64,000 nt of DNA from Caulobacteraceae bacterium (GTDB lineage: Bacteria; Pseudomonadota; Alphaproteobacteria; Caulobacterales; Caulobacteraceae): assembly GCA_947475845.1 (NCBI GenBank), contig CANJMO010000002.1, positions 1 to 64,000 on the forward strand, written 5' to 3'. The notes under the pieces were generated by a model. The model was not told the DNA's origin, searched no databases, and was given only the letters and a program-made list of their open reading frames with translations. Made by a program: the position numbers and the translations under genes. Positions 318 through 22,163 of the stretch are shown here, one piece after another (position 1 is the stretch's first letter; each line of letters opens with the position of its first letter).

Positions 318-1265
318 ATGCGAGTGATGTTGGCTCAGCCTCGCGGCTTCTGTGCAGGAGTCGTCCGCGCGATCGACATCGTCGAGAAGTCCATCGAGAA
401 GTTCGGCGCGCCGGTCTATGTGCGCCATGAGATCGTCCACAACAAACACGTCGTCGACAGCCTGAAGGCCAAGGGCGCGGTGTTCGTCGAGGAAATTTCC
501 GAGATTCCCGACGGCGCCACCACCATCTTCAGCGCCCACGGCGTGGCCCGCAGCGTGGTCGACGAGGCCGCCGGCCGCGGCCTGCCGGTGCTCGACGCCA
601 CCTGCCCTCTGGTGTCCAAGGTCCATGCCCAGGGCAAACGCTACGTCGCCCGCGGCCGCACCCTGATTCTGATCGGCCACGCCGGCCACCCGGAGGTCGA
701 AGGCACGCTGGGCCAGGTCGACGGCCCGGTGCTGCTGGTCTCCACCGAGGAAGACGTCCAGAGGCTGGAACTGCGCAACGACGCGCCGGTCTCCTACGTC
801 ACCCAGACCACCCTCAGCGTCGACGAGACCAAGGGCGTGATCGCCGCCCTGCAACGTCGCTTCTCCAACCTGACCGGCCCCAACACCTCAGACATTTGCT
901 ATGCGACCCAGCATCGCCAGTCGGCTGTGCGCGACCTGTGCAAGGTGTCCGACATCATCCTGGTCGTGGGCGCCGCCAACAGCTCCAACTCCAACCGCCT
1001 GTGCGAAATCGGGCGCGAGGAAGGGCTGCCGAGCTATCTGATCGCCGACGCCACGGCGATCGACCCGTCCTGGCTGGACGGCAAGAAAGCGGTCGGCCTC
1101 ACCGCCGGCGCCTCGGCGCCTGAAGAACTCGTTCTGGGCGTGATCAAGCGCCTGCGCGAGTTCGGCCCGGTCGATGTCGTGCCGATGCACGGCGTCGAAG
1201 AAACCATCGAATTCCGCCTGCCTCCGGAACTTCGCGAACCTAGCGACGACCTGGAAGTGGCTTAA
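318..1265 (+). CDS. ispH: 4-hydroxy-3-methylbut-2-enyl diphosphate reductase
   Basis: IspH (LytB) converts HMBPP to IPP and DMAPP with a [4Fe-4S] cluster, the last MEP step. At 315 residues it has the normal length. The three cluster cysteines are visible in their usual contexts: GFCAG near residue 12, DATCPLV near 96 and SDICYATQ near 197. The start at 318 is chosen because the protein then opens [14 protein letters not shown] as in the family; an in-frame start at 261 would add 19 atypical residues. It is 9 bp from hpnH, so isoprenoid supply and hopanoid side-chain synthesis are probably co-transcribed. Confidence 0.97.
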
Positions 1266-1274
1266 GGACCAGAC

Positions 1275-2435
1275 ATGGGCAAAAGTATCCCCTTCGCGCA
1301 GGCCGCCCGCATCGGCTCTTACGTCGTCGGCCAGACCCTCCGGGGCAACAAGCACTACCCGCTGGTGCTGATGCTGGAGCCTCTGTTCCGCTGCAACCTG
1401 GCCTGCGCCGGCTGCGGCAAGATCGACTATCCCGACGAGATCCTGAACCAGCGCCTGTCCTACGAGCAGTGCATGGAAGCGATCGACGAGTGCGGCGCCC
1501 CCGCCGTCTCCATCGCCGGCGGCGAGCCACTGCTGCACCGTGACATGCCCAAGATCGTCGAGGGCTATCTGAAGCGGAAGAAGTTCGTGATCCTGTGCAC
1601 GAACGCCCTGCTGCTGGCCAAGAAGATCGACCAGTACAAGCCCAACCCCTTCTTCACCTGGTCCATCCACCTGGACGGCGATCAGGCCATGCACGACAAG
1701 TCGGTGTGCGAGGACGGCGTCTACGAGAAGGCCGTCGAGGCCATCCTGCTGGCCAAGTCCAAGGGCTTCCGCACCCAGATCAACTGCACCCTGTTCGAAG
1801 GCTCCGACCCCGAGCGCGTGGCCAAGTTCTTCGACGAGATGACCGCGCTTGGCCTGGACGGCATCACCGTCTCGCCCGGCTACAGCTACGAGCGCGCGCC
1901 CGATCAGGAGCACTTCCTGAACCGCGCCAAGACCAAGCAGCTGTTCCGCGACGTGCTCAAGCGCGGCAACGGCGGCAAGGACTGGGACTTCACCCAGTCC
2001 AGCCTGTTCATGAACTTCCTGGCCGGCAACGAAGCCTACGAGTGCAGCCCCTGGTCGATGCCCGCGCGCACCGTGTTCGGCTGGCAGAAGCCCTGCTACC
2101 TGCTCGGCGAAGGCTATGTGAAGACCTTCAAGGAGCTGATGGAAGGCACCGAGTGGGAAAAGTACGGCGTCGGCAACTATGAGAAGTGCGCCGACTGCAT
2201 GGTCCACTGCGGCTTCGAAGGCACCGCCGTCGCCCACTCGGTCAAGAACCCGTTGAAGGTGGCCATGCTGGCCATGAAGGGGATCAAGACCGACGGCCCC
2301 ATGGCCACCGACATCTCCCTCGCCAACCAGCGCCCCGCCGACTACGTCTTCTCCGGCCACGTCGAGAAGAAGCTGACGGAAATCCGTATCGCCCAGCCGC
2401 GCGCTTCCAAGAGCGTGGTCACGGTCCAGGACTAG
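1275..2435 (+). CDS. hpnH: Adenosyl-hopene transferase (radical SAM)
   Basis: HpnH joins a 5'-deoxyadenosyl group to diploptene, the first step of C35 hopanoid side-chain extension. The 386-residue protein carries the radical-SAM motif C40-x3-C44-x2-C47 (RCNLACAGC) and a GGEP stretch typical of SAM binding, followed by a C-terminal Cys-rich segment (CADCMVHCGFEG). Length and opening (GKSIPFAQAARIGSYVV) match HpnH closely. It follows ispH by 9 bp and precedes the Rieske gene by 10 bp. The partner nucleosidase gene hpnG and the cyclase gene shc lie about 10 kb away on the other strand. Confidence 0.96.
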   Translation: MGKSIPFAQAARIGSYVVGQTLRGNKHYPLVLMLEPLFRCNLACAGCGKIDYPDEILNQRLSYEQCMEAIDECGAPAVSIAGGEPLLHRDMPKIVEGYLKRKKFVILCTNALLLAKKIDQYKPNPFFTWSIHLDGDQAMHDKSVCEDGVYEKAVEAILLAKSKGFRTQINCTLFEGSDPERVAKFFDEMTALGLDGITVSPGYSYERAPDQEHFLNRAKTKQLFRDVLKRGNGGKDWDFTQSSLFMNFLAGNEAYECSPWSMPARTVFGWQKPCYLLGEGYVKTFKELMEGTEWEKYGVGNYEKCADCMVHCGFEGTAVAHSVKNPLKVAMLAMKGIKTDGPMATDISLANQRPADYVFSGHVEKKLTEIRIAQPRASKSVVTVQD

Positions 2436-2445
2436 GGGACGCCTT

Positions 2446-3537
2446 ATGTCGGACGCCTTGCATTCGCCCCGGCTGACCGCTGGCGTCGATCTGCGCAAGA
2501 CCGACTGCCACCCGGACTTCTGGTACCCGATCGCCTGGTCCGAGCAGGTCAAGCCCGGCAAGATGCTGGCGCGTGAATACGCCGGCGAGCCGGTCGCCGT
2601 GGTCCGCGGCAAGGACGGCAAACTCTTCGCGCTCGAGAACCGCTGCGCCCACCGCCAGGTGCCGCTCACGCATGGCGTGGTCCAGGGCTGCACCGTCAAA
2701 TGCGGCTATCACGGCTGGGCCTACAACGCGTCCGGCGACTGCATCGACGTGCCCTACCTGGGCAAGGAGCGCCTGCCTAACGGCGTGAAGTCCTACCCCT
2801 GCGCCGAGGTCGACGGCCTGATCTTCATCTTCCCCGGCGACCCGGCCCTGGCCGAGGGCCGCCTGCCGACCGCGCTCGGCTCCAAGGCCGACGGCGCCTA
2901 CAAGACCCGCCAGCTCAACCGCGAGGTCGCCGCCCACTACACGTTCATGCACGAGAACCTGTTCGACATGAACCACCAGTTCCTGCACCGCAAGCAGATG
3001 GGCATGATCAAGGCCACCTGCCTCGGCCGCCGTCACGGCGCCGACTGGGCCGAGGTCGACTACACCTTCAGCCGCACCGAAGGCACCTCCACCGTCGGCG
3101 AGACCGCCATCCTCGGCGTGATGCGCAAGCGCGGCGAAGGCGACAACACCGACCTGATGACCATCCGCACCGGCTACCCCTACCAGAACCTGCGGGTGTG
3201 GGTCGGCGACGGCGAGCCGGTGCTCAACGTCTGGCTGGGATACACCCCGCTCGACAAGGAACAGCGCACCAACCGTACCTTCGGCTACCTGTCGGTCAAG
3301 CGCCCCAAGATCCCCGGCCTGATCGACGCCGCCTGGCCGTTCATCACCATGTTCACCGAGCAGATCTTCAAGGAAGACAAGGAGATCGTCGAGTTCGAGC
3401 AGAACGCCCACGACAATCAGGGCGCTGACTGGAACAACGAGGTGTTCCCCCCGATCCGCGATCTGCGCGAGGTCCTGGCCCGCTGCGGCGTGCCCAATGG
3501 CCAGCAACCCGACTCCAAGCGCTTCGCGGCCGAATAG
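2446..3537 (+). CDS. Rieske non-heme iron oxygenase, candidate hopanoid-modifying enzyme
   Basis: A 363-residue oxygenase alpha-subunit-like protein. The N-terminal Rieske domain binds a [2Fe-2S] cluster through C67-x-H69 and C86-x2-H89 (CAHR, CGYHGW). The mononuclear iron site is recognisable at residues 170-181 (ENLFDMNHQFLH), with D174, H177 and H181; the usual spacing between the two histidines is four residues, here three. No reductase gene is nearby. It is 10 bp downstream of hpnH in an ispH-hpnH operon. Family assignment is firm. A role in hydroxylating or demethylating hopanoids is inferred from position, by analogy with Rieske enzymes of bacterial sterol demethylation; a generic VanA/KshA-like oxygenase acting on another substrate is the alternative. 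Confidence 0.88.
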   Translation: MSDALHSPRLTAGVDLRKTDCHPDFWYPIAWSEQVKPGKMLAREYAGEPVAVVRGKDGKLFALENRCAHRQVPLTHGVVQGCTVKCGYHGWAYNASGDCIDVPYLGKERLPNGVKSYPCAEVDGLIFIFPGDPALAEGRLPTALGSKADGAYKTRQLNREVAAHYTFMHENLFDMNHQFLHRKQMGMIKATCLGRRHGADWAEVDYTFSRTEGTSTVGETAILGVMRKRGEGDNTDLMTIRTGYPYQNLRVWVGDGEPVLNVWLGYTPLDKEQRTNRTFGYLSVKRPKIPGLIDAAWPFITMFTEQIFKEDKEIVEFEQNAHDNQGADWNNEVFPPIRDLREVLARCGVPNGQQPDSKRFAAE

Positions 3538-3744
3538 ATGAAAGCCCTCGCCCTCGTCACGCTCTTGGCTCTGATGCTCGGCGGCGGGGAAGCCATCGCC
3601 AAGCCCTGCGTCGATCCCAAGGGCAAGACGATCAAGTGCCCGGCCGAAACCACCCAGCCGGCCGGCAACCGCTGCATCAACTCTAAGACCCGCAAATTCG
3701 TGAAGTGCGGCTCGCCCAACTCCGAGCCGGTTCCGCAGAACTAA
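3538..3744 (+). CDS. Small secreted four-cysteine protein
   Basis: A 68-residue protein whose ATG directly follows the stop codon of the Rieske gene (TAGATG), which suggests translational coupling. Residues 1-21 form a Sec signal peptide ending in AIA. The remaining mature part of about 47 residues is rich in Lys, Pro and Thr and contains four cysteines (PCVDP, IKCP, NRCIN, VKCG) spaced so that two disulfides are possible. No family is recognised. Its position suggests a link to the ispH-hpnH-Rieske operon, but no function can be read from the sequence. Confidence 0.75.
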   Translation: MKALALVTLLALMLGGGEAIAKPCVDPKGKTIKCPAETTQPAGNRCINSKTRKFVKCGSPNSEPVPQN

Positions 3745-5136: not shown

Positions 5137-5322
5137 ATCCTCACCTTTGTTTTCGGCGTCTGACGCGCCTGTCGCCTTGCGGCTTATCCGGTCACTATAG
5201 GCCGGTCCGCGAAACTTGGGAGGGGCTTGCGCGGGCCGTATCCGCCAGAACATCGTTCTGGACCCCGCTCCCGATTTCAGCCTTGATTGGCGGCGACAAA
5301 CAGAGACCTGAGGAAACCGCGC

Positions 5323-6627
5323 ATGAAGCGCCTGCTGCTGGCGACCACCCTGGCGTTCGTCGCCGCAGTTCCCGCCGCCGTCCTGGCCCAGGCCCCGCCG
5401 CCGTTCCCGCTGACCGGCATGCCGCCCGGCGCCACCGCCCTGCAGAACAAGAATTCCAGGGGTTTCCCGGACCCCAAAACCATCCCCGGCCAACCGATCG
5501 AAACCCGCACGCCGGAACTGTCCACCGACAAGCCGGCCTTCCCCGGGCAGACCCGCGCGCCGTTCAAGAAGACCGTCCCCTACAAGGTCACCACGATCAC
5601 CGAGAAGCTGAAGCAGCCCTGGAGCCTGGCCTTCCTGCCCAGCGGCAAGATGCTGGTCACCGAGAAGCCCGGAACCCTGCGCATCGTCAGCCCGTCCGGC
5701 GATGTCTCGGCCCCGGTCGCCGGCGTGCCGGCGGTCAACTACGCCGGCCAGGTCGGCCTGCTGGACGTGGCGCTCGACGCCAAGTTCGCCGCCAACAAGC
5801 GCATCTTTCTGTCGTTCAGCCAGCCGGTCGGCGCCGACAAGAGCACCATCGCCATCGCCATCGCCAGCGGCATCCTCGACGAGGCCGGCGGCGCCCTGAA
5901 GGACGTCAAGGTCATCTTCCGCGCCATGCCGATCCTGCCCAAGACGCTTGGCCCCAACGAAGGCGGCCGTATCGCCGTGGCCAAGGACGGCACCCTCTAC
6001 ATGACCGTCGGCGACCGTTCGCGCTCCCCGCCGTGGGAGATCGCCCAGCGCCTCGACACCACGCTCGGCAAGGTGATCCACATCACCCCCACCGGCGCGC
6101 CCGCGCCCGGCAACCCCTTCATCGGCAAGGCCGGCGCCCTGCCCGAGATCTGGAGCCTCGGCCACCGCAGTCAGGAAGGCCTCGCCTTCGACGGCCAAGG
6201 GCGTCTGTGGGAAACCGAGCACGGGCCGCGCGGCGGCGACGAGCTGAACCTGATGAAGGCCGGCAGCAACTACGGCTGGCCCCTGATCGTGCACGGCATC
6301 GACTATCCCGGGCAGCTGATCGCCGAGGGCCTGACCAAGAAGCAGGGCCTGGTCCAGCCGCGCTACTATTGGGATCCGGTGATCGCCCCCTCGGGCCTGG
6401 CCTTCTATACGGGCAATCTGTTCCCCGCCTGGAAGAACAGCGTGTTCGTCGGCAGCCTGCGCGGGACCATGCTCGACCGCCTGACCCTGGTCGGCGACAA
6501 GGTGGTCGACGAGGAGCCCCTGCTGGTGGAGGAGAAATCCCGCATCCGCGACGTGCGGGTCGGGCACGACGGCGCGCTCTACCTGCTGACCGACGACACC
6601 CGCCTGCTCAAGATCACGCCGAAGTAG
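5323..6627 (+). CDS. PQQ-dependent aldose (glucose/sorbosone-type) dehydrogenase
   Basis: A 434-residue secreted beta-propeller enzyme of the soluble GSDH/YliI family, which oxidises sugars in the periplasm with PQQ. Signal peptide at residues 1-23 (ending VLAQ). Family blocks visible: LKQPWSLAFLPSGKMLVTEK, GGRIAVAKDGTLYMTVGDR, SLGHRSQEGLAFD and TEHGPRGGDELN, the last holding the metal/PQQ-site region. The ATG at 5323 follows a GAGGAAA ribosome binding site; an earlier in-frame start at 5287 would put a basic leader before the signal peptide. Convergent with the molybdenum hydroxylase, only 6 bp apart. Confidence 0.92.
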   Translation: MKRLLLATTLAFVAAVPAAVLAQAPPPFPLTGMPPGATALQNKNSRGFPDPKTIPGQPIETRTPELSTDKPAFPGQTRAPFKKTVPYKVTTITEKLKQPWSLAFLPSGKMLVTEKPGTLRIVSPSGDVSAPVAGVPAVNYAGQVGLLDVALDAKFAANKRIFLSFSQPVGADKSTIAIAIASGILDEAGGALKDVKVIFRAMPILPKTLGPNEGGRIAVAKDGTLYMTVGDRSRSPPWEIAQRLDTTLGKVIHITPTGAPAPGNPFIGKAGALPEIWSLGHRSQEGLAFDGQGRLWETEHGPRGGDELNLMKAGSNYGWPLIVHGIDYPGQLIAEGLTKKQGLVQPRYYWDPVIAPSGLAFYTGNLFPAWKNSVFVGSLRGTMLDRLTLVGDKVVDEEPLLVEEKSRIRDVRVGHDGALYLLTDDTRLLKITPK

Positions 6628-6633
6628 GCGCGG

Positions 6634-8901
6634 TCACGCCTTCGCCAGCGCGGCCTTCATGCGCTGGCGAGTGAACGGCGCGCGGCGCATGCGCGCGCCC
6701 GTGGCGTCGTAGATGGCGTTGGCGATGGCGGCGGCCACCGGCCGCGTCGACGGCTCGCCCGCGCCGGACGGCGGCAGGTCCGGCCGGTTCAGCAACACCA
6801 TCTCCATGGTCTCGGGCGCGTCTTCCATACCCAGGATCGGATAGCTGATCCAGTCGGTGGTGGTGACATTGTCGGCGTCGAACTTGACCTCTTCGAACAG
6901 GGCGCGGCTGGCGCCGTGCACCACGTTGCCCTCGATCACCAGCTTGAGATTGTCAGGGTTGATCACCAGCCCGCACTCGTGGGCGACCCAGAAGCGGCGG
7001 GGCCACACCCGGCCGGTTGTCTTGTCGACCTCGACCTCCGACACCACCGCCACGATGGTCTGTCCACGGTTGGCGTAGGCGAAGCCCGTGCCGGTGACGG
7101 TCGAACCGGAACCGCCCCGGCGCGCGCCGGGCGGGCCGGCTTTCCAGTTGGCCGCCTTGGCCGCCGCTTCGATCACCGCGCGGTGGCGGGGGGCCTGGAT
7201 GTGCGCCAGGCGGAAGGCGACCGGGTCGGCCTTGGCCGCCGCGGCGCATTCGTCGATGAACGACTCGCTGGCGAAATGGATCTGCGGACCGAGCGGGTCG
7301 CGCAGGTGGGAGGTGCGCAGGGGCGACGCGCCCTCCATCAGCTTGGGGATCGTCTCCCAGGCCATGCGCCGGTTGGGCACCACATAGGAATCCTCGGGCG
7401 TGCCGAAGTTGGGCGTCGGCGTATTGGGAAAGCCCAGCCGTTGCCCGGCCAGGAAGTCCTGCGGGTCCTGCTCGAAGGTGTTGACGTCCATCCGGTTGAC
7501 GCCCTTGGACAGGTAGTCGTAGGCGGCCATCTTGCCATCGGCGCCGATCGCCGCGCGCACCTCGTGGATCGAGGCGGCGCCCTTGGGGTCCCAGCCGTGG
7601 CCGTCGGCGCGCATCCATTGCACCCGCACCGGCTTGCCCGCCAGCGACGACATCACCGCCGCGTCGGCGCAGGCGTCGCCCGCGTCGTTGCGGCCGTAGG
7701 AGCCCGGCCCCTGGACGTAGATCGAGTGCACGCTCTCCACAGGCCTGCCGAGCAGCTTGGCCACGCCCTGCGCCGTCGCGAAGGTCTTCTGCGACGGATT
7801 CCACAGGGTGATCCCGTCCGGCCGCACATCGGCGACGGCGCAGCCGGGGCCCATGCTGGCGTGGGTCTGGAACGGCCATTCGTACTCGGCTTCCACCAGC
7901 AGACCGCCGCCCTTCAGCGTCTCATCCACCGCGCCGAGATTCTGCACCACCTCGCGCTTCACCACCGGCGCCTTGCGGATGTGATCGTACAGGGTCTCGG
8001 AATCGAACAGCGGCGACGGGCCCTGCGACCACGTCACCTTCAGCGTCCGCGCGGCCTGGATCGCGTCCCACTCGCGCGGCGCCACCACGCCGATGAAGTC
8101 GCCCTTGCGCAGGACCTTCGCCCTTGAGAAGCGGGCGATACTGGCCTCGTCCACCGATACAGGCTTTGCGCCGGCCACGGGCGGTTGGATCGTGCGCCCG
8201 TGCAGCATGCCCGGCGGGCGGTAGTCGGCGGCGTAGGGGTAGGTGCCGTGCACCTTGCCCGGGATATCGCGCCGCTTGGGCGAGGTTCCCACCAGACGGT
8301 ACTGGTCCGGCGTCTTGGGCTTGGCCTTGCCTGTGGCCAGCAGGGTGTTGCCGGTCTTGCCGTTCCAGTCGAGTTTGGCGTCGAAGCGCCCGCCCTTGAT
8401 CAGCTGGGCGTAGGTCACTTTCTTGCGCGGCGCGCCGATCACCGAGACCACGCCGTCGCGGACCTCCAGCTTGTCGGTTGCGACGCCGAGCTTCACCGAA
8501 GCCTGTTCCACCAAAAGACGCCGCGCCTCGGCCGCCGCGCCGCGCAGCATGGCTCCGCCCAGCTGCACGCCGGTCGAGCCGGACACCCCGCCCTGGTCGC
8601 AGGTGCGCTTGGTGTCGGCCATGACGATCGACACCCGGTCGAGCGGTACGTCCAGTTCCTCGGCGACGATCTGGGCGATGGCCATCTCGACCCCCAGTCC
8701 CACATCCGGCTTGCCGAAGAAGGCGGTGACCTTGCCGTCCGCGGCGATGGCGATCCACGAGTCCAGCTCGGCCGGATGCGGCAGGCCGTCTGTGATCTTG
8801 GCGGTCTGGGCCAGCACCTCGGCCGGGGCGCTGATCAACACCACCAGGGCGCCCATGCCCTGGAGCAACTGACGGCGGGAAGCGGCGGTATGTGCGTTCA
8901 T
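6634..8901 (-). CDS. Molybdenum hydroxylase large subunit (isoquinoline 1-oxidoreductase beta-like)
   Basis: A 755-residue xanthine-dehydrogenase-family subunit that binds molybdopterin and hydroxylates an aromatic or aldehyde substrate. A Tat-like signal (SRRQLLQGMGALVV) at residues 9-22 indicates periplasmic export of the folded complex. The active-site glutamate lies in GAGEPST (E716) near the C-terminus, and GPGSYGRNDAGDACADAA marks the substrate channel. The long reading frame extends upstream of 8901, but the ATG there gives the signal peptide. It follows the iron-sulfur subunit gene by 14 bp. No cytochrome subunit or CoxG/XdhC-type maturation gene is adjacent. Confidence 0.93.
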   Translation of the reverse strand: MNAHTAASRRQLLQGMGALVVLISAPAEVLAQTAKITDGLPHPAELDSWIAIAADGKVTAFFGKPDVGLGVEMAIAQIVAEELDVPLDRVSIVMADTKRTCDQGGVSGSTGVQLGGAMLRGAAAEARRLLVEQASVKLGVATDKLEVRDGVVSVIGAPRKKVTYAQLIKGGRFDAKLDWNGKTGNTLLATGKAKPKTPDQYRLVGTSPKRRDIPGKVHGTYPYAADYRPPGMLHGRTIQPPVAGAKPVSVDEASIARFSRAKVLRKGDFIGVVAPREWDAIQAARTLKVTWSQGPSPLFDSETLYDHIRKAPVVKREVVQNLGAVDETLKGGGLLVEAEYEWPFQTHASMGPGCAVADVRPDGITLWNPSQKTFATAQGVAKLLGRPVESVHSIYVQGPGSYGRNDAGDACADAAVMSSLAGKPVRVQWMRADGHGWDPKGAASIHEVRAAIGADGKMAAYDYLSKGVNRMDVNTFEQDPQDFLAGQRLGFPNTPTPNFGTPEDSYVVPNRRMAWETIPKLMEGASPLRTSHLRDPLGPQIHFASESFIDECAAAAKADPVAFRLAHIQAPRHRAVIEAAAKAANWKAGPPGARRGGSGSTVTGTGFAYANRGQTIVAVVSEVEVDKTTGRVWPRRFWVAHECGLVINPDNLKLVIEGNVVHGASRALFEEVKFDADNVTTTDWISYPILGMEDAPETMEMVLLNRPDLPPSGAGEPSTRPVAAAIANAIYDATGARMRRAPFTRQRMKAALAKA

Positions 8902-8915
8902 GGCCCTGCCCTCCC

Positions 8916-9383
8916 CTAGACGTTCATGGCGGCGGCGCGTTTGACCGCGCGCATGATCGCCATATGCGTGCCGCAGCGGCACTTGAGCCCCGCCAGCGCC
9001 TCGCGGATTTCGGCGTCGGTGGGGTGCGGCTTTTCCTTGAGCAGGGCTGCGGCGGTCATCATCCAGCCGGAGATGCAGTAACCGCACTGCGGGGTCTGTT
9101 CCTCGATATAGGCGGCCTGGATCGGGTGCGGATGTTCGGGCGTGCCGAGACCGATGAGGGTGGTGACCGTCTTGCCCTCGGCGGCGGACGCCGGTGTCAC
9201 GCAGGAGCGCACCGGCTTGCCGTCGATCTGCACGGTGCAGGCGCCGCATTGGCCCAGCCCGCAGCCGAAGTGGGGCGAGTTCAGCTCCAGATCGTCGCGC
9301 AGGATGTAGAGCAGAGGCGTGCGCGGATCGGCGGCGACCTTGCGCTTCTTCCCGTCGACGGTCAGCGAAACCTGGTCAGCCAT
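8916..9383 (-). CDS. Molybdenum hydroxylase (2Fe-2S) subunit (isoquinoline 1-oxidoreductase alpha-like)
   Basis: A 155-residue protein with two [2Fe-2S] clusters that passes electrons from the molybdenum subunit. The plant-ferredoxin-type cluster ligands are C41, C46, C49 and C61 (CGLGQCGACT, SCVTP). The C-terminal helical cluster uses QCGYC and KCRCGTH. No signal peptide, so it probably travels with the Tat-exported large subunit. It is 12 bp downstream of a copy of the GDTLVxDT family, giving an operon of two secreted proteins followed by the two enzyme subunits. Confidence 0.95.
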   Translation of the reverse strand: MADQVSLTVDGKKRKVAADPRTPLLYILRDDLELNSPHFGCGLGQCGACTVQIDGKPVRSCVTPASAAEGKTVTTLIGLGTPEHPHPIQAAYIEEQTPQCGYCISGWMMTAAALLKEKPHPTDAEIREALAGLKCRCGTHMAIMRAVKRAAAMNV

Positions 9384-13121: not shown

Positions 13122-15083
13122 CTACATGCCGAACGCGACGACGGGGGAATTGGCCTTGATCAGGTTGCGGTAGCGCGCCACCGCCCACAGGGGGAAGAAC
13201 TTCCGATAGCCGTGGTAGCGCAGGTAGAACACCCGCGGGAAACCGCCGCCGGTGAAGTACTCCTCGGGCCACAGCCCGTCCGCGCCCTGCGTCTCGGACA
13301 GCCAGGCGACGCCGCGCGCCACCGCCGGATGATCGACCTGGCCCGCCGCCATCAGCCCGAGCAGGGCCCAGGCGGTCTGCGAGGCGGTCGAGGGGGCCGG
13401 CTGATAGCCCTTGTAGGCGAGGTCGTAGCTGTCGCAGCTCTCGCCCCAGCCGCCGTCCGGGTTCTGGATGGCGACCAGCCAGTCGCAGGCCTTGGCCACG
13501 ACAGGCGCCTGCCCGGTCAGGCCGGCGGCGTTGAAGGCGCACAGGGCCGACCATGTGCCGTAGACGTAGTTCACGCCCCAGCGGCCCCAGAAGCTGCCGT
13601 CCTGCTCCTGCTCGGCTTCGAGGTAGTCCAGCGCGCGCTTGAGGCGGTCGGAGGTTTCGGGCTTTTCGCCCAACTGCGCCAGCAGGGAGACGCAGCGCGC
13701 GGCCACGTCCACCGTCGGCGGGTCGAGCAAGGCGCCGTGGTCGGCGAAGGGGATGTTGTTGAGGTAGTGGTAGGTGTTGTCGGCGTCGAACGCGGCCCAG
13801 CCGCCGTTCTTCGATTGCAGGCCCGCGGTCCATTCGACGGAGCGGTCGATCGCCTCGTCGTAGACGTCGCCCGAGCCGAGGCGAGTGCGGGCCCGGTCCA
13901 TGGCCATGGCCACCACGGCGGTGTCGTCGAGATCGGGGTAGTGGTCGTTGCGGTACTGGAAGGCCCAGCCGCCGGGCCGTACGTCCGGCTTCTCATCGGC
14001 CCAGTCGCCCTTGACGTCGAGCACCTGCAGCGGGGCCAGCCAGGCCAGGGCGTCCTTGGCCTTTTGCTCGGCGACGGGGCCGCCGGCTTCCATCAGGGCG
14101 TGGGCGGCGAGCGCCGTGTCCCACACCGGCGAGACGCAGGGCTGGCAGTAGGTCTCGTGGTCCTTGACCACCAGCAGGTTCTCCACCGACTTGCGGGCGA
14201 TGGCGCGGTGGGGATGGTCTTCGGAATAGCCGAGCACGGCGAACATCATCACGCTGTTGGCCATGGCCGGGTAGATGGCGCCCAGGCCGTCCTCGCCGTT
14301 GAGGCGCTCCACCACCCAGTCGCGGCAGCGGTCAAGGGCGCGGCGGCGCAGGCCCTTGGGCCAGATGGGTTGGAGGGCTTTGAGCACGACATCGATGGCG
14401 TTGAAGCCGACGATCCAGGCTTTCTTAAGGTTGGCGCCCTTGGACGCGCGTGGGACAGGGGTGACCTGTTCGAACAGCTCGGGGACGTGGACGCCGCGGC
14501 GGTTTACGGCCATGGGCTTCAGCGCCTGCAGCACCAGCAGGGGCACGATCACCGTGCGGGCCCAGTAGCTCATCTTGCCCAGGGTGATCGGGAACCAGCG
14601 CGGCAGCATGATGATCTCGGGCGGCATCACCGGGATCTCGGCCCAGTCCATGTCGCCGTAGAGGGCCAGCTGGATGCGGGTGAAGACGTTGACGGCCATG
14701 GCCCCGCCGTTGGCGCGGATCGCGGCGCGGGCGCGGGTCATCACCTCACCGTCGAGCGGCTCGCCGATCATCTTGAGGCAGAAGTAGGCCTTCACGCTGG
14801 CGGAGATGTCGAAGGCGCCGCCGTGATAGAGGGGCCAGCCGCCGTGCTCGCCCTGGATGCGGCGCAGGTAGACGCCGATCTTGCGCTCCAGCTCCAGGTC
14901 CTCGGGCTCGCCGAGGTAGTGCTTCAGGAGCACGAACTCCGAGGGGATGGTGGCGTCGGCTTCCAGCTCGAAGACGAAGTGGCCGTCGGGCTTCTGCAGC
15001 GCCAGCAAGGCGTCCGTGGCGCGCGCCACCAGCCGCTCGACGGCGTCGAGAGAGGGGGCGGCGATGGAAGAAGCGTCGTCCAT
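13122..15083 (-). CDS. shc: Squalene-hopene cyclase
   Basis: Cyclises squalene to hopene and hopanol at the membrane. The 653-residue protein has normal length, and the catalytic D384-L-D386-D387-T-A motif supplies the acid that protonates squalene. QW repeats are frequent, for example QNPDGGWGES, QDGSFWGRWG and QSKNGGWAAFD. It lies between the truncated TonB receptor and hpnG. The ATG at 15083 opens with MDDASSIAAPSLDAVERLV, consistent with other Caulobacterales cyclases. Also called hpnF. Confidence 0.97.
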   Translation of the reverse strand: MDDASSIAAPSLDAVERLVARATDALLALQKPDGHFVFELEADATIPSEFVLLKHYLGEPEDLELERKIGVYLRRIQGEHGGWPLYHGGAFDISASVKAYFCLKMIGEPLDGEVMTRARAAIRANGGAMAVNVFTRIQLALYGDMDWAEIPVMPPEIIMLPRWFPITLGKMSYWARTVIVPLLVLQALKPMAVNRRGVHVPELFEQVTPVPRASKGANLKKAWIVGFNAIDVVLKALQPIWPKGLRRRALDRCRDWVVERLNGEDGLGAIYPAMANSVMMFAVLGYSEDHPHRAIARKSVENLLVVKDHETYCQPCVSPVWDTALAAHALMEAGGPVAEQKAKDALAWLAPLQVLDVKGDWADEKPDVRPGGWAFQYRNDHYPDLDDTAVVAMAMDRARTRLGSGDVYDEAIDRSVEWTAGLQSKNGGWAAFDADNTYHYLNNIPFADHGALLDPPTVDVAARCVSLLAQLGEKPETSDRLKRALDYLEAEQEQDGSFWGRWGVNYVYGTWSALCAFNAAGLTGQAPVVAKACDWLVAIQNPDGGWGESCDSYDLAYKGYQPAPSTASQTAWALLGLMAAGQVDHPAVARGVAWLSETQGADGLWPEEYFTGGGFPRVFYLRYHGYRKFFPLWAVARYRNLIKANSPVVAFGM

Positions 15084-15162: not shown

Positions 15163-16866
15163 TTAGAAGCGGTAGCTGGCTTGCATGCCGATCACCCGCG
15201 GACGCTGGTACTGTTCCTGCACGAACGGGTTGAAGGTGCCGTAAGCGGTACAGGCGGGACTGCCGGCGGTGGTGCAGGAGGCCTGGCCGTTGCCGAACAG
15301 GTTGGCGGTCAGCTGGCGGCTGCCCAGGACGTTGGTCGAGTAGGCGGTCAGGTCCACCTTGCCGAAGGTCACGCCGGCCCGCAGGTTCAAGATGTTGCTG
15401 GCCGGGATGTTGCGCGTCGAGGGCGAGTAGTTCACCGCGCCGAAGCTGGAGCCCTGCTGGTAGCGACCGACGAAGTTCCAGTCGGCGCGGATGAAGACCG
15501 GCTGATCGGACAGGGCGAAGTCGTAGCGCACGCCCAGGGTGCCCTGGATGTTCGGGACCGCGATCGGGTCGCCGGCATTGAAGGCGATGACCGCCTGGCC
15601 GTTACCGACCGGACCCAGCACGTTCTGGGTGTAGTTGGCCTTGTCGTAACCGGCCGACAGAGAGACCAGCCAGCCGGAAACCGGGCGGTAGTCGACCTGC
15701 AGGTCGACGCCCTTGGAGGTCGCGGTGCCGCCGTTCTGTTGCCAGCCCGGGCAGCCGGTGACCGTCTGAGCGACCTGGATGTTGCTCCAGTCGATCTGGA
15801 AGGCCGCGGCGTTCAGCTGCATCTTGTTGTCGAGCAGGCGCAGCTTCGTGCCGAGCTCGTAGCTGACCACCGAGTCCTGGTTATAGACGGTGGGGATGTC
15901 GTTGACGGTCAGGCCGTAGATGGCCAGGCCGGGGGCGCAGGCCGGGTTCAGCGGCGAGTTCAGGCCGCCGGAGCGGTAGCCCTTGGCGACGGTGAAGTAG
16001 GCCATCTTGTCGGAGGTGAAGTCGTACTGGACGTTGACCTTGGGGGTCACCGGCGTCGACTTGATGGTGCCGTCGATATAGGCGCCCGGCGAGGTCAGGA
16101 AGTTACGGCCGACGTTGTAGAAGCCGTAGTTGGCCTGCTGGAAGTGGAAGTTGGTCTGCGAGATGCGCAGGCCAAGGGTCAGCTTCAGCTTGTCGGTGAC
16201 CTTGTAGTTGCCTTCGCCCAGCAGCGCGGTTTCGGTGTCGGTGGTGGTGGCGTGCAGTTCCGACATGACGCCGGGGGTGGCGAAGTTCTGACCCGCGTAA
16301 CGCTGCGAGGCGGTCAGGCCGTCGAACAGCAGGTAGTCGGCGTTGTAGTTGCCCTTGACCTGCCAATCGTACTTGGTCTGGACGCTGGATATGAACACGC
16401 CCGCGACGAAGCTGAAGCGCTTCTCGGCCGGCGAGGACAGGCGGAATTCCTGCTCAATGCCGGAGCGTTCGTTCTTGGCGTCGAACACGCCCGCGTATTG
16501 CAGGTTGCCGGCCCACAGCGGCAGGCCGGTGCGGCCGGGATTTTCCAGCGTCGGCTGGGTGCGCAGGATGTCGTAGCCTTCGTCGGTCAGGCCCACGGTG
16601 CGGTCGTGCAGGTAGGAGGTGACCGACTTCAGGGCGTATTCGCCGGCCTGGTAGTCGAGGGTCAGGGAGGCGACGTCGTTCTGGGTCGAGGTGTCGTAGG
16701 AGCGCGGCGCATAGGGCGACAGGCTGGAGTTCTCGCCCAGGTTATAGGGGCCGTAGGTGTAGGACGGGCGCTTGTACCAGCCGGCCGCAAGCGCAAGCTG
16801 GGGCACCAGCCCAACGTCCGGACCGTTGGCGCGGCTGGACACCGGGAAGCACGCCGCCCTGGACAC
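15163..16866 (-). pseudogene. TonB-dependent receptor, lacking signal peptide and plug
   Basis: The open frame holds about 550 residues of outer-membrane beta-barrel: alternating strands, SYLHDRTVGLTDEGYDI, GYRSGG with the usual conserved NPACAPG neighbourhood, and the terminal QYQRPRVIGMQASYRF ending in aromatic F. The signal peptide, TonB box and plug domain (about 250-280 residues) are missing. The barrel similarity fades upstream of about 16800, where the frame enters unrelated sequence. Without plug and export signal the product cannot work as a receptor. It interrupts the hopanoid operon between hpnE and shc. Substrate cannot be inferred. A real gene with a start beyond a frameshift is excluded by the absence of plug sequence in any frame up to 17058. 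Confidence 0.8.
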
Positions 16867-17057: not shown

Positions 17058-18311
17058 TCAGCGCAGGGTCAGGCCCGCCGCCGTCTCGCCCGAGCGCAGC
17101 GCGCCTTCGATTGTGGCGGGCAGGCCGGTGGCGGTCCAGTCGCCGGCGAGGACCAGGTTGGCGAGCGCGGTCCTGGCCGGGGGACGCTTGGCGTCCTGCT
17201 CGGGCGTCGCGGCGAAGGTGGCGCGCTTTTCCTTGACGATCTGCCAGGCGGGCAAGGCCGCGTCGCCGAGGTTGAGGGTGGCGGCGACATCGGCCCAGAG
17301 GGTGCGGGCCAAGTCCTCGCGGTCGCGGTCGACGATGGCGTCGGCGCCGGAGACGGTGACGGAGATGCGGTCGTGGAAGACGAATACCCATTCGGCGACG
17401 GCGCCGATGACGCCGGTCATGGGGGCGTGGGCGCGGTAGTCGAAGCCCGGCGGCAGGGCGAAGTGGGCGTTGACGATGGCGCGGAAGTCGTCGGGAGCGT
17501 CGAGGCCCGGCAGCAGGCCCTGGGCCGGGGCCGGGGCGACGGCGAGGATCACCTTGTCGTCAGGCGTCAGGGCGACATCGCCGTCGGCGAAGGTCAGGGA
17601 TGTGGCGCGGCCGTCCGCCTGAGCGATGGCCTTGAGCGAGCGGCGCAGGCGGACTTCGACGCCCTTGGTCTTCAGATACTCCAGCGCCGGTTCGACGAAG
17701 GCAGCGGCCAGGGTCGGTTCGGCGATACGGGGGCGGCTGGCCATGCCGCCCAGGGCCAGGCTTTCGCGCACCACGGCGCCTGCGAGGTCCATGGAGCCGA
17801 TGGCGGGGTCGGTGTTGAGCACCGCCAGCATGACCGGCCGCAGCATCTTTTCCCAGAGCGGGCCCGAGCAGGCGATGACCTGGTCCATGCGCTTGCCGGG
17901 ATGGCGGGTCATGAACTTGGCGAGGACGGCGTAGTCGAGGGCGGTTGTGCCGGGGACGCGTCGCGTCTTGTCGAAGATCCACCAGGGGATGCGGCCGTCG
18001 CTGGGGCGCATGCGCCAGCGGGCGCCGTCGCGGATGTCGAAGAAGGTGAAGTCGGCCTTGTCCGGCCCGGCCAGCCGGTCCGAGGCGCCGATGCGGGCGA
18101 GGTAGTCCTGCACCGCGCGGTTGCCAGACAGGACGAGGTGGTTGCCGTTGTCGATGGTCATGCCGAGCTGAGGATCGAAGTAGGAGCGGCAGCGGCCGCC
18201 GGCCTGGGCGGCGGCTTCGGACAAGATCACGCGCTCGCCGCGCCCGGCCAGGAGGGTGGCGGCGGACAGGCCCGCGAGGCCGGCGCCCACAACATGGACG
18301 ACGCCCGTCAC
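17058..18311 (-). CDS. hpnE: Hydroxysqualene dehydroxylase
   Basis: FAD-dependent enzyme that reduces hydroxysqualene to squalene, the third step of the HpnCDE route. The 417-residue protein opens with the dinucleotide-binding motif VVGAGLAGLSAATLLAGRGE and ends with the flavin-contacting block LVLAGDWTATGLPATIEGAL, as in amine-oxidase-like phytoene desaturases. The start is the GTG at 18311, which overlaps the hpnD stop as GTGA; this coupling and the immediately following Rossmann motif fix the start. The next gene downstream is the broken TonB receptor. Confidence 0.95.
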   Translation of the reverse strand: MTGVVHVVGAGLAGLSAATLLAGRGERVILSEAAAQAGGRCRSYFDPQLGMTIDNGNHLVLSGNRAVQDYLARIGASDRLAGPDKADFTFFDIRDGARWRMRPSDGRIPWWIFDKTRRVPGTTALDYAVLAKFMTRHPGKRMDQVIACSGPLWEKMLRPVMLAVLNTDPAIGSMDLAGAVVRESLALGGMASRPRIAEPTLAAAFVEPALEYLKTKGVEVRLRRSLKAIAQADGRATSLTFADGDVALTPDDKVILAVAPAPAQGLLPGLDAPDDFRAIVNAHFALPPGFDYRAHAPMTGVIGAVAEWVFVFHDRISVTVSGADAIVDRDREDLARTLWADVAATLNLGDAALPAWQIVKEKRATFAATPEQDAKRPPARTALANLVLAGDWTATGLPATIEGALRSGETAAGLTLR

Positions 18312-19147
18312 GGCAGGAGGCCGTAGCGCAGCAGGACCCACAGCTTCTCGGCCTTGCTGAGGCTGACGCGGGTGCGGGGCGGGGCCCAGCCCTGGACCAG
18401 CATGTGCTCGAGGATCTTGCCGTAGGCGGCGCGCATCAGGCGCGGGGCCTTGATGGAGCCCTGGCGCGAGGCGTTCATGACCCGGTCGGCGGCGGCGTAG
18501 TGGCCCCTCGCCGCCTGGGCCAGCACCCGCGCGGCGGCGTCGATGCGCGGGTCGGCGATGATGGTCGCCGGGTCGGAGACGGGGATGCCGGCGACGGCCA
18601 GGGCGTCGCTGGAGACGTAGAGGCGGCCTATGCCGGCGTCCTCGTCGAAATCGCGCAGGATGTTGGTCAGCTGCAGGGCGCGGCCAAGGTGGTGGGAAAG
18701 CTCGATACCCTGCTGGCGCTCCATGCCGAACACCTTGACCGAGAGGCGGCCGACGGCGCTGGCCACGCGGTCGCAGTAGAGGTCGAGGGTGGCCGCGTCG
18801 GGGGCCACGATGTCGCCGGCCACGTCCATGGCCATGCCGTCGATCACGGCGACGAAGTCGGGCTTTTCGAGATCGAAGTCTCGGACGGGCTCCACCAGGA
18901 AGGCGGCCTGGCCGGGGTCGCCGCCGGCGTAGAGGGCGTCGAGGTCGGCGCGCCATTGGTCGAGGGCGGCGGCGCGCTGCGGGCGCGAGCCCTGCTGATC
19001 GTCGGCGATGTCGTCGACCGCGCGGCAGAAGGCGTAGATGGCGAACATGCCGGCCCGGCCCTTGGGCGGCATCATCTTCATGGCCGCATAGAACGAGCTC
19101 TTGGCGACCTTGGCTTCGAGCGCCGCCATGTCGGGCCCGGCGCTCAC
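18308..19147 (-). CDS. hpnD: Presqualene diphosphate synthase
   Basis: Condenses two farnesyl diphosphates to presqualene diphosphate. The 279-residue all-alpha prenyl synthase has the first Asp-rich motif FCRAVDDIADD and the second NILRDFDEDAGIGRLYV, both with the aspartates needed to hold magnesium and diphosphate. The GTG at 19147 overlaps the hpnC stop (GTGA), the same arrangement as at the hpnD-hpnE join, and is taken as the start; an ATG at 19129 is an alternative that would remove six residues. Confidence 0.95.
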   Translation of the reverse strand: MSAGPDMAALEAKVAKSSFYAAMKMMPPKGRAGMFAIYAFCRAVDDIADDQQGSRPQRAAALDQWRADLDALYAGGDPGQAAFLVEPVRDFDLEKPDFVAVIDGMAMDVAGDIVAPDAATLDLYCDRVASAVGRLSVKVFGMERQQGIELSHHLGRALQLTNILRDFDEDAGIGRLYVSSDALAVAGIPVSDPATIIADPRIDAAARVLAQAARGHYAAADRVMNASRQGSIKAPRLMRAAYGKILEHMLVQGWAPPRTRVSLSKAEKLWVLLRYGLLP

Positions 19148-20010
19148 GCCTTCTTGCCCATGCGGGTGACCAGGGTGCGGACCATGGCCGAGAGGCCCAG
19201 GGTCGCCATGCGCATCTTGTCGTGGTGCATCTCCTGGCTGAGGGGATCGCGGGTCAGCAGCAGCTTGCACAGGTCGTCCGCCAGGGCCTGGATCACGCCG
19301 ACCTCCAGCGCCAGGCGGCCGTCCTTGATCGCGCGGGCGAAGGGCCGCGAGACGTCGAGCAGGTCCATGGTCTGGCGGGTCAGGCCGATGATCACGCCGC
19401 GCAGGGCGGGCGAGGCGGCGTCGGCGTCGAGCGCCTCGACCCCCAGGCCGGCGGCGTGCAGACGGTCGAGCGGGATGTAGATGCGGTCGATCTCGCGGCG
19501 GTCCTTGCCGCAGTCCTGCAGGTGATTGATGACCTGGAGCGCGGCGCACAGGGCGTCGTTCATCGGCCACAGGTCGCGGCTCTCGCCGTGGACGTCGAGG
19601 ACGAAGCGGCCGACCGGGGCCGCGGAGTAGCGGCAGTAGTCCATCAGGTCGGCCCAGTCGTCGTAGCGCAGCTTGGTGACGTCGCGGCGGAAGGCTTCGA
19701 GCAAATCGAGCCCATGCTGGGCCGACAGGTCCCGCTCAATAAGCGCGGCGCGCAGGTCGCGGCCCTCGGGCGCTTCGCGGGTCTCGCCTTGCAGGCTGGC
19801 GCGAAGGGCCTCCAGCATCTCCAGCTTGGTGCCGGGCTCGGCCAGGGCGTTGTCGGCCACGTCGTCGGCGGCGCGGGCGAAGCGGTAGAAGGCCATCACT
19901 ACCGGACGGTGACGCGGGGCGATCAGGGCCGAGGCGACGGGGAAGTTCTCGTTGGTCGAGCCCTTGCCGGACGCCAGGTCCTCGGCGGCCAGGGTCATTG
20001 GATTGTCCAT
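19144..20010 (-). CDS. hpnC: Hydroxysqualene synthase
   Basis: Converts presqualene diphosphate to hydroxysqualene. The 288-residue protein is a paralog of HpnD with FARAADDVADN as first Asp-rich motif; the second is altered to NHLQDCGKDRREIDRIYIP, as is usual in HpnC. The opening STNENFPVAS (residues 18-27) is an HpnC hallmark. It lies 12 bp after hpnB and overlaps hpnD by 4 bp. Confidence 0.95.
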   Translation of the reverse strand: MDNPMTLAAEDLASGKGSTNENFPVASALIAPRHRPVVMAFYRFARAADDVADNALAEPGTKLEMLEALRASLQGETREAPEGRDLRAALIERDLSAQHGLDLLEAFRRDVTKLRYDDWADLMDYCRYSAAPVGRFVLDVHGESRDLWPMNDALCAALQVINHLQDCGKDRREIDRIYIPLDRLHAAGLGVEALDADAASPALRGVIIGLTRQTMDLLDVSRPFARAIKDGRLALEVGVIQALADDLCKLLLTRDPLSQEMHHDKMRMATLGLSAMVRTLVTRMGKKA

Positions 20011-20022
20011 GCGGCCCTCAAC

Positions 20023-21159
20023 TCACGTTATGGCCTGGGCGCGGCCCTTCCAGAGCCCGCCCTTGCCGCGCCACATCTGCACCGCCGACTGCACGGTGAA
20101 CAGGGTATAGGCCGCGCCGATCGCCGGCAGGGCCAGGCCCCATAGCGGCGAGACCTTGTAGAACTTCAGCATGGGTTGGAACGACAGCGCCATCAGCAGC
20201 CAGGTGATCAGGCCAATCCCATCGAGGGGCGGGCCACACAGAATCGCCGCCACCGGGGCGATGTAGACCAGCAGCATGCCCAAGACCACGCTAACCAGCT
20301 TCAGCGGGCTGTAGTCGAGCTGGGCGTAGGCAGAGCGGGAGACCATGCGGCCGATCTCGGCCACCGTCTGGTAGGGGCGCAGGGAGGTGGCGCGATGGGT
20401 CAGGCCGAGCCAGATCGGGCCCTGCTGTTTCATGAGGGCGCCCAGGGCGCAGTCGTCGATCAGGGCCGCGCGGATGGCGGCGATGCCCCCTGCCCGCTTG
20501 AGCGCCTCGCGCTCGGCCAGCATGACGCCGCCGGCGGCCGCGGCGGTGGGGCCGGGGCGGTTCACCTTGGGGAACGGGTAGACCATCTGGAAGAAGAAGA
20601 CGAAGGCGGGGATCAGGAAGCGCTCGGCCCGGGTCTGGCAGTGCAGCTGGGCCATCAGGGAGGTGAGGACGAGCTTTTCCTGTTCGGCGCGGCAAACGAG
20701 GTTGCGCAGGTTGTCGGGTGTGTGGCCGATGTCGGCGTCGGTGAGGAGCAGGTATTTGGGCTCGGTCTCCTCGGCCCGCAGCGCGCCCTGATGCACGGCC
20801 CACAGCTTGCCGGTCCAGCCGGATGGCAGGGGCGCGCCGGTGAGGATGTCCAGGCGATGGGGGCGGCCGAGACGGTCGGCCTCGGCGCGGGCGGCGGCGG
20901 CGGTTCCGTCGGAGGAGCTATCGTCGACCAGGATCACCTTGAAGTCGCCGGGATAGTCCTGGGCTAGCAAGGAGCCGACCGAGCGGCCGATGACGTCGGC
21001 CTCATCGCGGGCGGGGACAACAGCGATCACGGAGGGCCAGACGGCGGGATGCAGCGGCGGGACCAGGTCGTCGCGCTGGTCGGCTTTCCAGAAGCCGCCG
21101 TGGGCCAGCAGCAGGCCGAGCCAGATGATGAGGGGGATGACGCCGAGCAGCAGGGTCAT
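20023..21159 (-). CDS. hpnB: Hopene-associated glycosyltransferase
   Basis: A 378-residue membrane-bound family-2 glycosyltransferase. Hydrophobic segment at residues 2-20, then the GT-A domain with VIAVVPARDEADVIGRSVGS, VDDSSSDGT and the metal-binding DAD in LLLTDADIGHTPD, then C-terminal membrane segments (about residues 295-365). HpnB accompanies hopanoid operons and is thought to act on hopanoid sugars, but its exact reaction is not settled. The ATG at 21159 overlaps the hpnA stop by one base (TGATG). Confidence 0.92.
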   Translation of the reverse strand: MTLLLGVIPLIIWLGLLLAHGGFWKADQRDDLVPPLHPAVWPSVIAVVPARDEADVIGRSVGSLLAQDYPGDFKVILVDDSSSDGTAAAARAEADRLGRPHRLDILTGAPLPSGWTGKLWAVHQGALRAEETEPKYLLLTDADIGHTPDNLRNLVCRAEQEKLVLTSLMAQLHCQTRAERFLIPAFVFFFQMVYPFPKVNRPGPTAAAAGGVMLAEREALKRAGGIAAIRAALIDDCALGALMKQQGPIWLGLTHRATSLRPYQTVAEIGRMVSRSAYAQLDYSPLKLVSVVLGMLLVYIAPVAAILCGPPLDGIGLITWLLMALSFQPMLKFYKVSPLWGLALPAIGAAYTLFTVQSAVQMWRGKGGLWKGRAQAIT

Positions 21160-22163
21160 CAGAGGTAGCCGTGCTCGCGGAACCAGCTCATGGCGTCGGC
21201 GATGGCTTCTTTGTACGGGCGCGCCGTGTAGCCCAGCTCGGCCTGCGCCTTGGCCGAGGTGAAGAACATGTGCCGCTTGGACATGGTCAGGGCGTCGCGG
21301 GTCAGCATCGGCTCCTTGCCGGTGATCTGGGCGACGGCTTCGAACAGCGAGGCCAGGGGATAGAGCGGGCCGCGCGGCAGGTTGACGGTGGGGGGCTTGC
21401 GCCCGGCCAGGGCGGCGATGTCGGCCAGCATCTGGCGCAGGGTGACGTCCTGACCGCCGAGGATGTAGCGCTGGCCGATGCGGCCCTTGTCGAGCGCCAG
21501 CAGGTGGCCGCGGGCGACGTCGTCGACGTGGGCGAGGTTGAGGCCGGTATCGACGAAGGCGGGCACCTTGCCGGCGGCGGCCTCGACGATGATGCGGCCG
21601 GTGGGGGTCGGCTTGACGTCGCGCGGGCCGATCGGGGTCGAGGGATTGACGATCACGGCGGGCAGGCCGTGCTCGGCGACCATCTGTTCGACCAGCCGTT
21701 CGGCGATCACCTTGGAGCGCTTGTAGGCGCCGATGGCGGTCTGCTCGGTAAGGGGCGCGCTCTCGTCGGCGGGGGCCATGCGGTCCTGGCCGGGCGGTAT
21801 GCCGAGGGTGGCGACGGAGGAGGTGTAGACGACGCGCTCGACACCCGCCTTGAGTGCGGCGTTCATCACCGCCTGGGTCCCCTGGCGGTTGGCGCGAACG
21901 ATGTCTTCGGGGTCGCGGGCCCACAGGCGGTAGTCGGCGGCGACGTGGAACAGGTGGCGGGCGCCCTTGGCGGCGGCCTCCATGCTGGCCTGATCGGTCA
22001 TGTCGCCATAGGCGATCTCGACGTCGAGGCCGTCGAGGTTGGTGGAGGGGCTGGTGCGGCGGGCCAGGACCACGACCTGGCATCCCCGCGCCAGCAGCAG
22101 GCGGGCCACGGCCGAGCCGACGAAGCCGGTGGCTCCGGTCACCAGAACCCGGTCTGCGCTCAA
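21159..22163 (-). CDS. hpnA: Hopanoid-associated sugar epimerase
   Basis: A 334-residue extended short-chain dehydrogenase. NAD-binding motif VLVTGATGFVGSAVARLLL at residues 6-24 and the catalytic YKRSK (Y-x3-K) in AIGAYKRSKVIAERL. HpnA occurs in many hopanoid operons as a presumed sugar nucleotide epimerase/dehydratase; the substrate is not known. The start codon is TTG at 22163, supported by GGGAG nine bases upstream and by the Rossmann motif beginning at residue 6. Follows the mlaA-like gene by 16 bp. Confidence 0.93.
   Translation of the reverse strand: MSADRVLVTGATGFVGSAVARLLLARGCQVVVLARRTSPSTNLDGLDVEIAYGDMTDQASMEAAAKGARHLFHVAADYRLWARDPEDIVRANRQGTQAVMNAALKAGVERVVYTSSVATLGIPPGQDRMAPADESAPLTEQTAIGAYKRSKVIAERLVEQMVAEHGLPAVIVNPSTPIGPRDVKPTPTGRIIVEAAAGKVPAFVDTGLNLAHVDDVARGHLLALDKGRIGQRYILGGQDVTLRQMLADIAALAGRKPPTVNLPRGPLYPLASLFEAVAQITGKEPMLTRDALTMSKRHMFFTSAKAQAELGYTARPYKEAIADAMSWFREHGYL

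Follow-up and report, generated by a model that had tools for sequence, protein, structure and literature searches.

A Rieske oxygenase subfamily that accompanies hopanoid synthesis in Alpha- and Gammaproteobacteria is a candidate for a hopanoid-modifying step

Results

The ispH–hpnH–Rieske block and the other hopanoid genes of the window

The window (the whole stretch of DNA analysed, 64,000 nt of a contig labelled Caulobacteraceae bacterium) begins with ispH, hpnH and a gene for a Rieske non-heme iron oxygenase, all co-directional and separated by gaps of 9 bp (ispH/hpnH) and 10 bp (hpnH/Rieske). This arrangement, which had been noted in an earlier sequence-only reading, was borne out by the open reading frames and by curated models (Table 1). 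The sequence AGGGGA, located 5′ of the ATG of the Rieske gene, is a plausible ribosome site, and the 9–10 bp gaps make co-transcription with ispH and hpnH probable in the genus of the window. In a second species of this genus (loci L004 and L105), the hpnH–Rieske block was kept with 90% nucleotide identity, and the DNA downstream differed. An open reading frame for 68 aa (3538–3744, + strand), with a signal-peptide-like start and four cysteines, starts right after the Rieske stop codon; it had no match in Pfam or NCBIfam, and it was rejected as part of the Rieske unit because a homologue was absent from every other fetched locus.

The genes shc and hpnA–E, which had been overlooked in the sequence-only reading, were found at 13–22 kb, and the first 22 kb of the window is a single hopanoid region with unrelated genes interspersed. 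A glucose/sorbosone-dehydrogenase-like protein (5287–6627, + strand) and the large subunit and [2Fe-2S] small subunit of a molybdopterin hydroxylase (6634–9383, − strand) are encoded between the hpnH and shc parts, and a TonB-dependent receptor (15163–16866, − strand) between shc and hpnE within the hopanoid cluster.

Table 1. Genes and protein motifs of the hopanoid region, with positions in the window
Feature	Position	Strand	Evidence
ispH, 4-hydroxy-3-methylbut-2-enyl diphosphate reductase, last step of the MEP pathway	318..1265	+	NCBIfam NF002188, 482 bits (cut-off 420)
hpnH, adenosyl-hopene transferase (radical SAM)	1275..2435	+	TIGR03470, 527 bits (cut-off 225)
Rieske non-heme iron oxygenase, 363 aa, ATG start	2446..3537	+	Pfam Rieske 88 bits and VanA_C 44 bits, both above cut-off
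[2Fe-2S] Rieske motif, C67-x-H69 ... C86-x2-H89	2644..2712	+	4/4 ligands invariant in 48 orthologues
Mononuclear iron motif, N171-x2-D174-x2-H177-x3-H181	2956..2988	+	Invariant in 48 orthologues
D311, probable carboxylate ligand of the mononuclear iron	3376..3378	+	Invariant in 48 orthologues
shc, squalene-hopene cyclase	13122..15083	−	TIGR01507, 755 bits (cut-off 431)
hpnE, hydroxysqualene dehydroxylase	17058..18310 (5′ end approximate)	−	TIGR03467, 387 bits
hpnD, presqualene diphosphate synthase	18308..19132 (5′ end approximate)	−	TIGR03465, 302 bits (cut-off 279)
hpnC, squalene synthase HpnC	19144..20010	−	TIGR03464, 275 bits
hpnB, hopene-associated glycosyltransferase	20023..21180 (5′ end approximate)	−	TIGR03469, 521 bits
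hpnA, hopanoid-associated SDR with homology to SdmB, a sterol demethylase reductase	21159..22163	−	TIGR03466, 484 bits

Motifs, predicted fold and family of the Rieske protein

The Rieske protein was aligned with 48 orthologues, which were 56–96% identical to it, and the alignment was good over the full length. Pfam scores above cut-off, the invariance of the cluster and iron motifs and of the distal carboxylate among the 48 orthologues, and a fold match identified the protein as the alpha subunit of a Rieske oxygenase. From what is known of the family, D311 is presumably the carboxylate ligand of the mononuclear iron. The mononuclear iron motif of the window protein reads E-N-L-F-D-M-N-H-Q-F-L-H, that is, H-x3-H. 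The sequence-only reading had recognized this spacing and regarded it as unusual; the spacing is present, but the terminal oxygenase of carbazole 1,9a-dioxygenase (CARDO) has it too (DTTHIFMH and DPSHIYIH), while dicamba O-demethylase (DdmC) carries H-x4-H. As CARDO shares the spacing, H-x3-H was rejected as a mark of novelty; it is a fixed feature among the orthologues.

The AlphaFold2 model of the Rieske protein (pLDDT 85, pTM 0.85) matched DdmC, guaiacol O-demethylase and SxtT/GxtA at a TM score of about 0.7. When the 18,950 NCBIfam models were searched, SdmA (NF052579), which oxidises the C-4 methyl group of sterols in bacteria, was matched by 48 of 48 members and was their only match at E<1e-15. 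The window protein scored 164 bits against this model, whose cut-off is 600 bits, and is related to SdmA at a level below membership. Rieske non-heme iron oxygenases need a reductase or ferredoxin as electron donor; no such partner was found beside the Rieske gene in the window.

Co-occurrence with hopanoid synthesis

Of the 50 genomes carrying an orthologue of the Rieske gene, 49 had shc (47 with scores over the curated cut-off and two as fragments; one genome had none), and HpnH was found in 47. In the Caulobacteraceae-type family, to which the window belongs, shc was present in 30 of 259 genomes, including all 14 Rieske carriers (Fisher p 3e-15); in the gammaproteobacterial family of genome G039 (labelled Steroidobacteraceae), shc and the Rieske gene each occurred in 20 of 120 genomes, 18 of them in common (p 3e-17); and in the Sphingomonadaceae-type family of genome G004, shc occurred in 35 of 331 genomes and in 4/4 carriers (p 1e-4). 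The significance expressed by these p values is overstated, since related genomes are not independent. When the three families were pooled, 36 of the 38 carriers had shc, against a family background of 11–17%. At the genus level, the Rieske gene was found in 7 of the 22 genera of the Caulobacteraceae-type family, all within the 8 genera with shc. In an order-level sample, 32 of 200 genomes had shc, among them the sole Rieske carrier, the genome of the window itself. Many of the carriers are metagenome-assembled genomes (MAGs) with generic or doubtful labels; Sphingomonas oligoaromativorans (DSM 102246, locus L007) is a cultured carrier.

The Rieske gene is accessory among hopanoid producers, because many genomes with shc were without it (16 of 30 in the Caulobacteraceae-type family, 2 of 20 in the G039 family and 31 of 35 in the Sphingomonadaceae-type family). 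No shc was seen in G038 and G255, two carriers of the G039 family (about 2.5 Mb). In a further genome, G589, the shc gene looked split or frameshifted (C1:1278276-1279936), and the Rieske protein (L121) was the most divergent orthologue (55–56% identity, long branch); possibly, hopanoid synthesis is decaying there, with the Rieske gene drifting alongside. In the gene tree, the Caulobacteraceae rows fell into three separate parts and were mixed with gammaproteobacterial rows, and this scatter suggests that the gene was passed from one lineage to another within the hopanoid makers.

Gene neighbourhoods of the Rieske orthologues

A pattern scan, which was not exhaustive and may miss relatives, yielded 80 related loci. 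The sequence-only reading had looked to a conserved hpnH–Rieske adjacency. Of the 80 loci, hpnH lay in the examined flank at L004 (of the window genus), L031/L038 and L050 only, and adjacency to hpnH, being rare outside the window genus, was rejected as the main argument. The gene order was Rieske-idi-hpnH-ispA-dxs-sqs-shc in L031/L038, with hpnA next in L038; Rieske-dxs-ispA-ispH-hpnH-shc-hpnE-hpnD in L050; and hpnA-shc-sqs-(four lipid-type genes)-Rieske-dxs in L043. At least four independent arrangements (the window genus, L031/L038, L043 and L050) therefore place the Rieske gene near isoprenoid or hopanoid genes, a count that is a minimum because the flanks were short at many loci. Linkage to hpn genes was found in more than one lineage, though at a minority of loci; at most loci, no hopanoid gene lay within the examined flank.

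Among the annotated neighbours, no catabolic gene recurred beside the Rieske gene. A shared catabolic neighbourhood was rejected, since the neighbours were varied (phosphoglycerate kinase, SRAP, ketosynthase, ABC-type ATPase and glycosidase) and no partner recurred across lineages. A recurring cassette near the Rieske gene was observed in the gammaproteobacterial loci L026, L032, L039, L043, L046 and L051, comprising genes for a CDP-alcohol phosphotransferase, a HalD-like protein, an LPG-synthase-like membrane protein and an NTP-transferase-like protein; neither a HalD-like nor an LPG-synthase-like gene was seen in L026, and in L043 the cassette separates squalene synthase/shc from the Rieske gene.

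Discussion

A candidate for hopanoid oxidation

Hopanoids, the counterparts of cholesterol in bacteria, are major membrane lipids, and common molecular fossils derive from them. The best reading of the present data is that the Rieske proteins form a subfamily, so far undescribed, that probably oxidises hopanoids. Hopanoid oxidation is favoured because a mobile gene with only occasional linkage to hpn genes is nearly confined to hopanoid producers, and because its nearest named relative oxidises a triterpenoid. The subfamily is thus a strong new candidate for a hopanoid-modifying step, and its product would be a demethylated or otherwise oxidised hopanoid. Hopanoid tailoring by the Rieske enzyme had been put forward in the sequence-only reading; the idea is supported by the co-occurrence with shc and HpnH, the independent placements and the homology with SdmA, whereas hpnH adjacency does not hold in most relatives and the H-x3-H spacing lends no support. 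No work joining hopanoid, Rieske and hpnH was found in the literature searched, and the titles and abstract openings of the papers there that mention both hopanoids and Rieske proteins describe no such enzyme.

In the Rieske oxygenase family, O2 is activated at the mononuclear iron by electrons passed on from the Rieske cluster. By analogy, the window protein would act as terminal oxygenase in a monooxygenase of the Rieske non-heme iron type, and its substrate may be a hopanoid in the form of either the pentacyclic C30 core or a bacteriohopanepolyol. NAD(P)H would supply electrons, which would pass through a reductase, the presumed donor, to the [2Fe-2S] cluster, and from the cluster through D174 to the mononuclear iron bound by H177, H181 and probably D311. 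O2 activated at this iron would then hydroxylate one C–H of the triterpenoid, or oxidise it repeatedly.

Alternative explanations

A catabolic or detoxifying role, in which a Rieske O-demethylase or monooxygenase acts on plant phenolics, exogenous triterpenoids or steroids, is unlikely. Such an enzyme would share an acid-soil or peat guild with hopanoid producers and the adjacency to hpnH would be incidental, and the nearest solved structures (DdmC and guaiacol O-demethylase), the mobility and frequent solitude of the gene, and the several carriers labelled as bog, palsa or lichen MAGs are in keeping with it. However, sharing a guild would hardly yield shc in 36 of 38 carriers over the 11–17% background in three separate families, the repeated placement in MEP and hopanoid clusters is not easily explained, and the annotated neighbours offer no recurring catabolic genes. 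It is less probable still that the substrate is another isoprenoid product (squalene or a precursor, a carotenoid or a quinone) or another membrane lipid supplied alongside hopanoids. The linkage to the general isoprenoid genes idi, dxs, ispA and ispH speaks for an isoprenoid of this kind, and the nearby CDP-alcohol phosphotransferase/LPG-synthase-like cassette of the gammaproteobacterial subset for another lipid; yet MEP genes are general in these bacteria, the Rieske gene tracks shc specifically, and the homology with SdmA points to cyclic triterpenoids.

That the Rieske protein is a true SdmA acting on sterols is highly improbable. SdmA is its nearest named family, but the score of the window protein is far from the cut-off, and nearly every carrier had one cyclase match, of the squalene-hopene type, with no second match suggesting an oxidosqualene cyclase. 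Sterol synthesis in the carriers was rejected on this ground, which is indirect, being drawn from matches to the squalene-hopene cyclase model.

The SdmA/SdmB parallel and HpnA

A parallel with sterol demethylation by SdmA and SdmB can be drawn. Hopanoids are without the C-3 hydroxyl that SdmB chemistry needs. SdmA homologues alone give the 4-methylaldehyde, and SdmB or SdmC completes the demethylation (PMC10202945). Against the SdmB model (NF052578), HpnA scored 215 bits in the window and 205 bits in L038 (L038:13745-14839), both below the cut-off of 600 bits. It was also observed that the SdmA-like Rieske protein and the SdmB-like HpnA occupy the same hopanoid regions in the window and in L038. 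HpnA is described, in a 2025 survey of alphaproteobacterial hopanoids, as present in most hopanoid producers and of unknown function (PMC12583986); the Rieske gene is far less widespread. The Rieske oxygenase, possibly with HpnA, might oxidise a ring methyl of hopanoids stepwise (alcohol, aldehyde, acid) to give demethylated or carboxylated hopanoids. This is an unlikely proposal, because HpnA is far more widespread and because of the missing C-3 hydroxyl. If it were true, ring-methyl oxidation with HpnA would give nor-hopanoids a direct biological source and HpnA a function.

Significance

With its close association with hopanoid producers in both Alpha- and Gammaproteobacteria, the Rieske family offers a concrete candidate for an oxidative step, one that can be deleted, and it leads to the prediction that oxidised hopanoids occur in scarcely profiled lineages. 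The 2025 survey lists the genes for bacteriohopanepentols and -hexols (BHpentols/BHhexols) and for Delta6 and Delta11 hopanoids as unknown, and reports that its scan around hpn clusters gave no candidate for a pentol/hexol gene (PMC12583986). A role of the Rieske enzyme as the general source of BHpentols/hexols or Delta6 hopanoids was unsupported, as the producers named in the survey (Enhydrobacter, Acetobacteraceae and Afipia; PMC12583986) were absent among the locus labels, a weak comparison given that the pattern scan can miss relatives and that many locus labels are generic.

Comparison with known systems

SdmA, the 4beta-methylsterol monooxygenase that works with SdmB in aerobic methanotrophs and some other bacteria, is a Rieske oxygenase that aligns with the window protein over residues 20–339, and it acts on a polycyclic triterpenoid, like the proposed hopanoid oxidase. 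The two differ in that the Rieske protein reaches 164 bits of the 600-bit cut-off, and in that its carriers show a hopene cyclase and nothing to suggest one for sterols. DdmC and guaiacol O-demethylase (3gb4 and 7qwt), the best fold matches (TM about 0.7; E 4e-20 and 2.5e-19), have the same architecture of Rieske cluster and mononuclear iron, but they are 21–24% identical, take aromatic ethers as substrates and have no link to hopanoids, and DdmC has H-x4-H. CARDO resembles the window protein in its H-x3-H spacing, but it is about 20% identical, acts on carbazole and fits the model more poorly (TM about 0.6). KshA, the 3-ketosteroid 9alpha-hydroxylase, is likewise a Rieske enzyme acting on steroid rings, with a profile match of 64 bits, but this match is confined to the N-terminal half and KshA serves steroid catabolism. 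To our knowledge, none of the hopanoid enzymes HpnP, HpnR, HpnO, HpnI, HpnK and HpnJ is a Rieske oxygenase. The Rieske gene resembles them in being accessory and unevenly distributed; for hpnP, hpnR and hpnO, the 2025 survey describes an uneven distribution and a position that is usually unlinked to the hpn cluster (PMC12583986).
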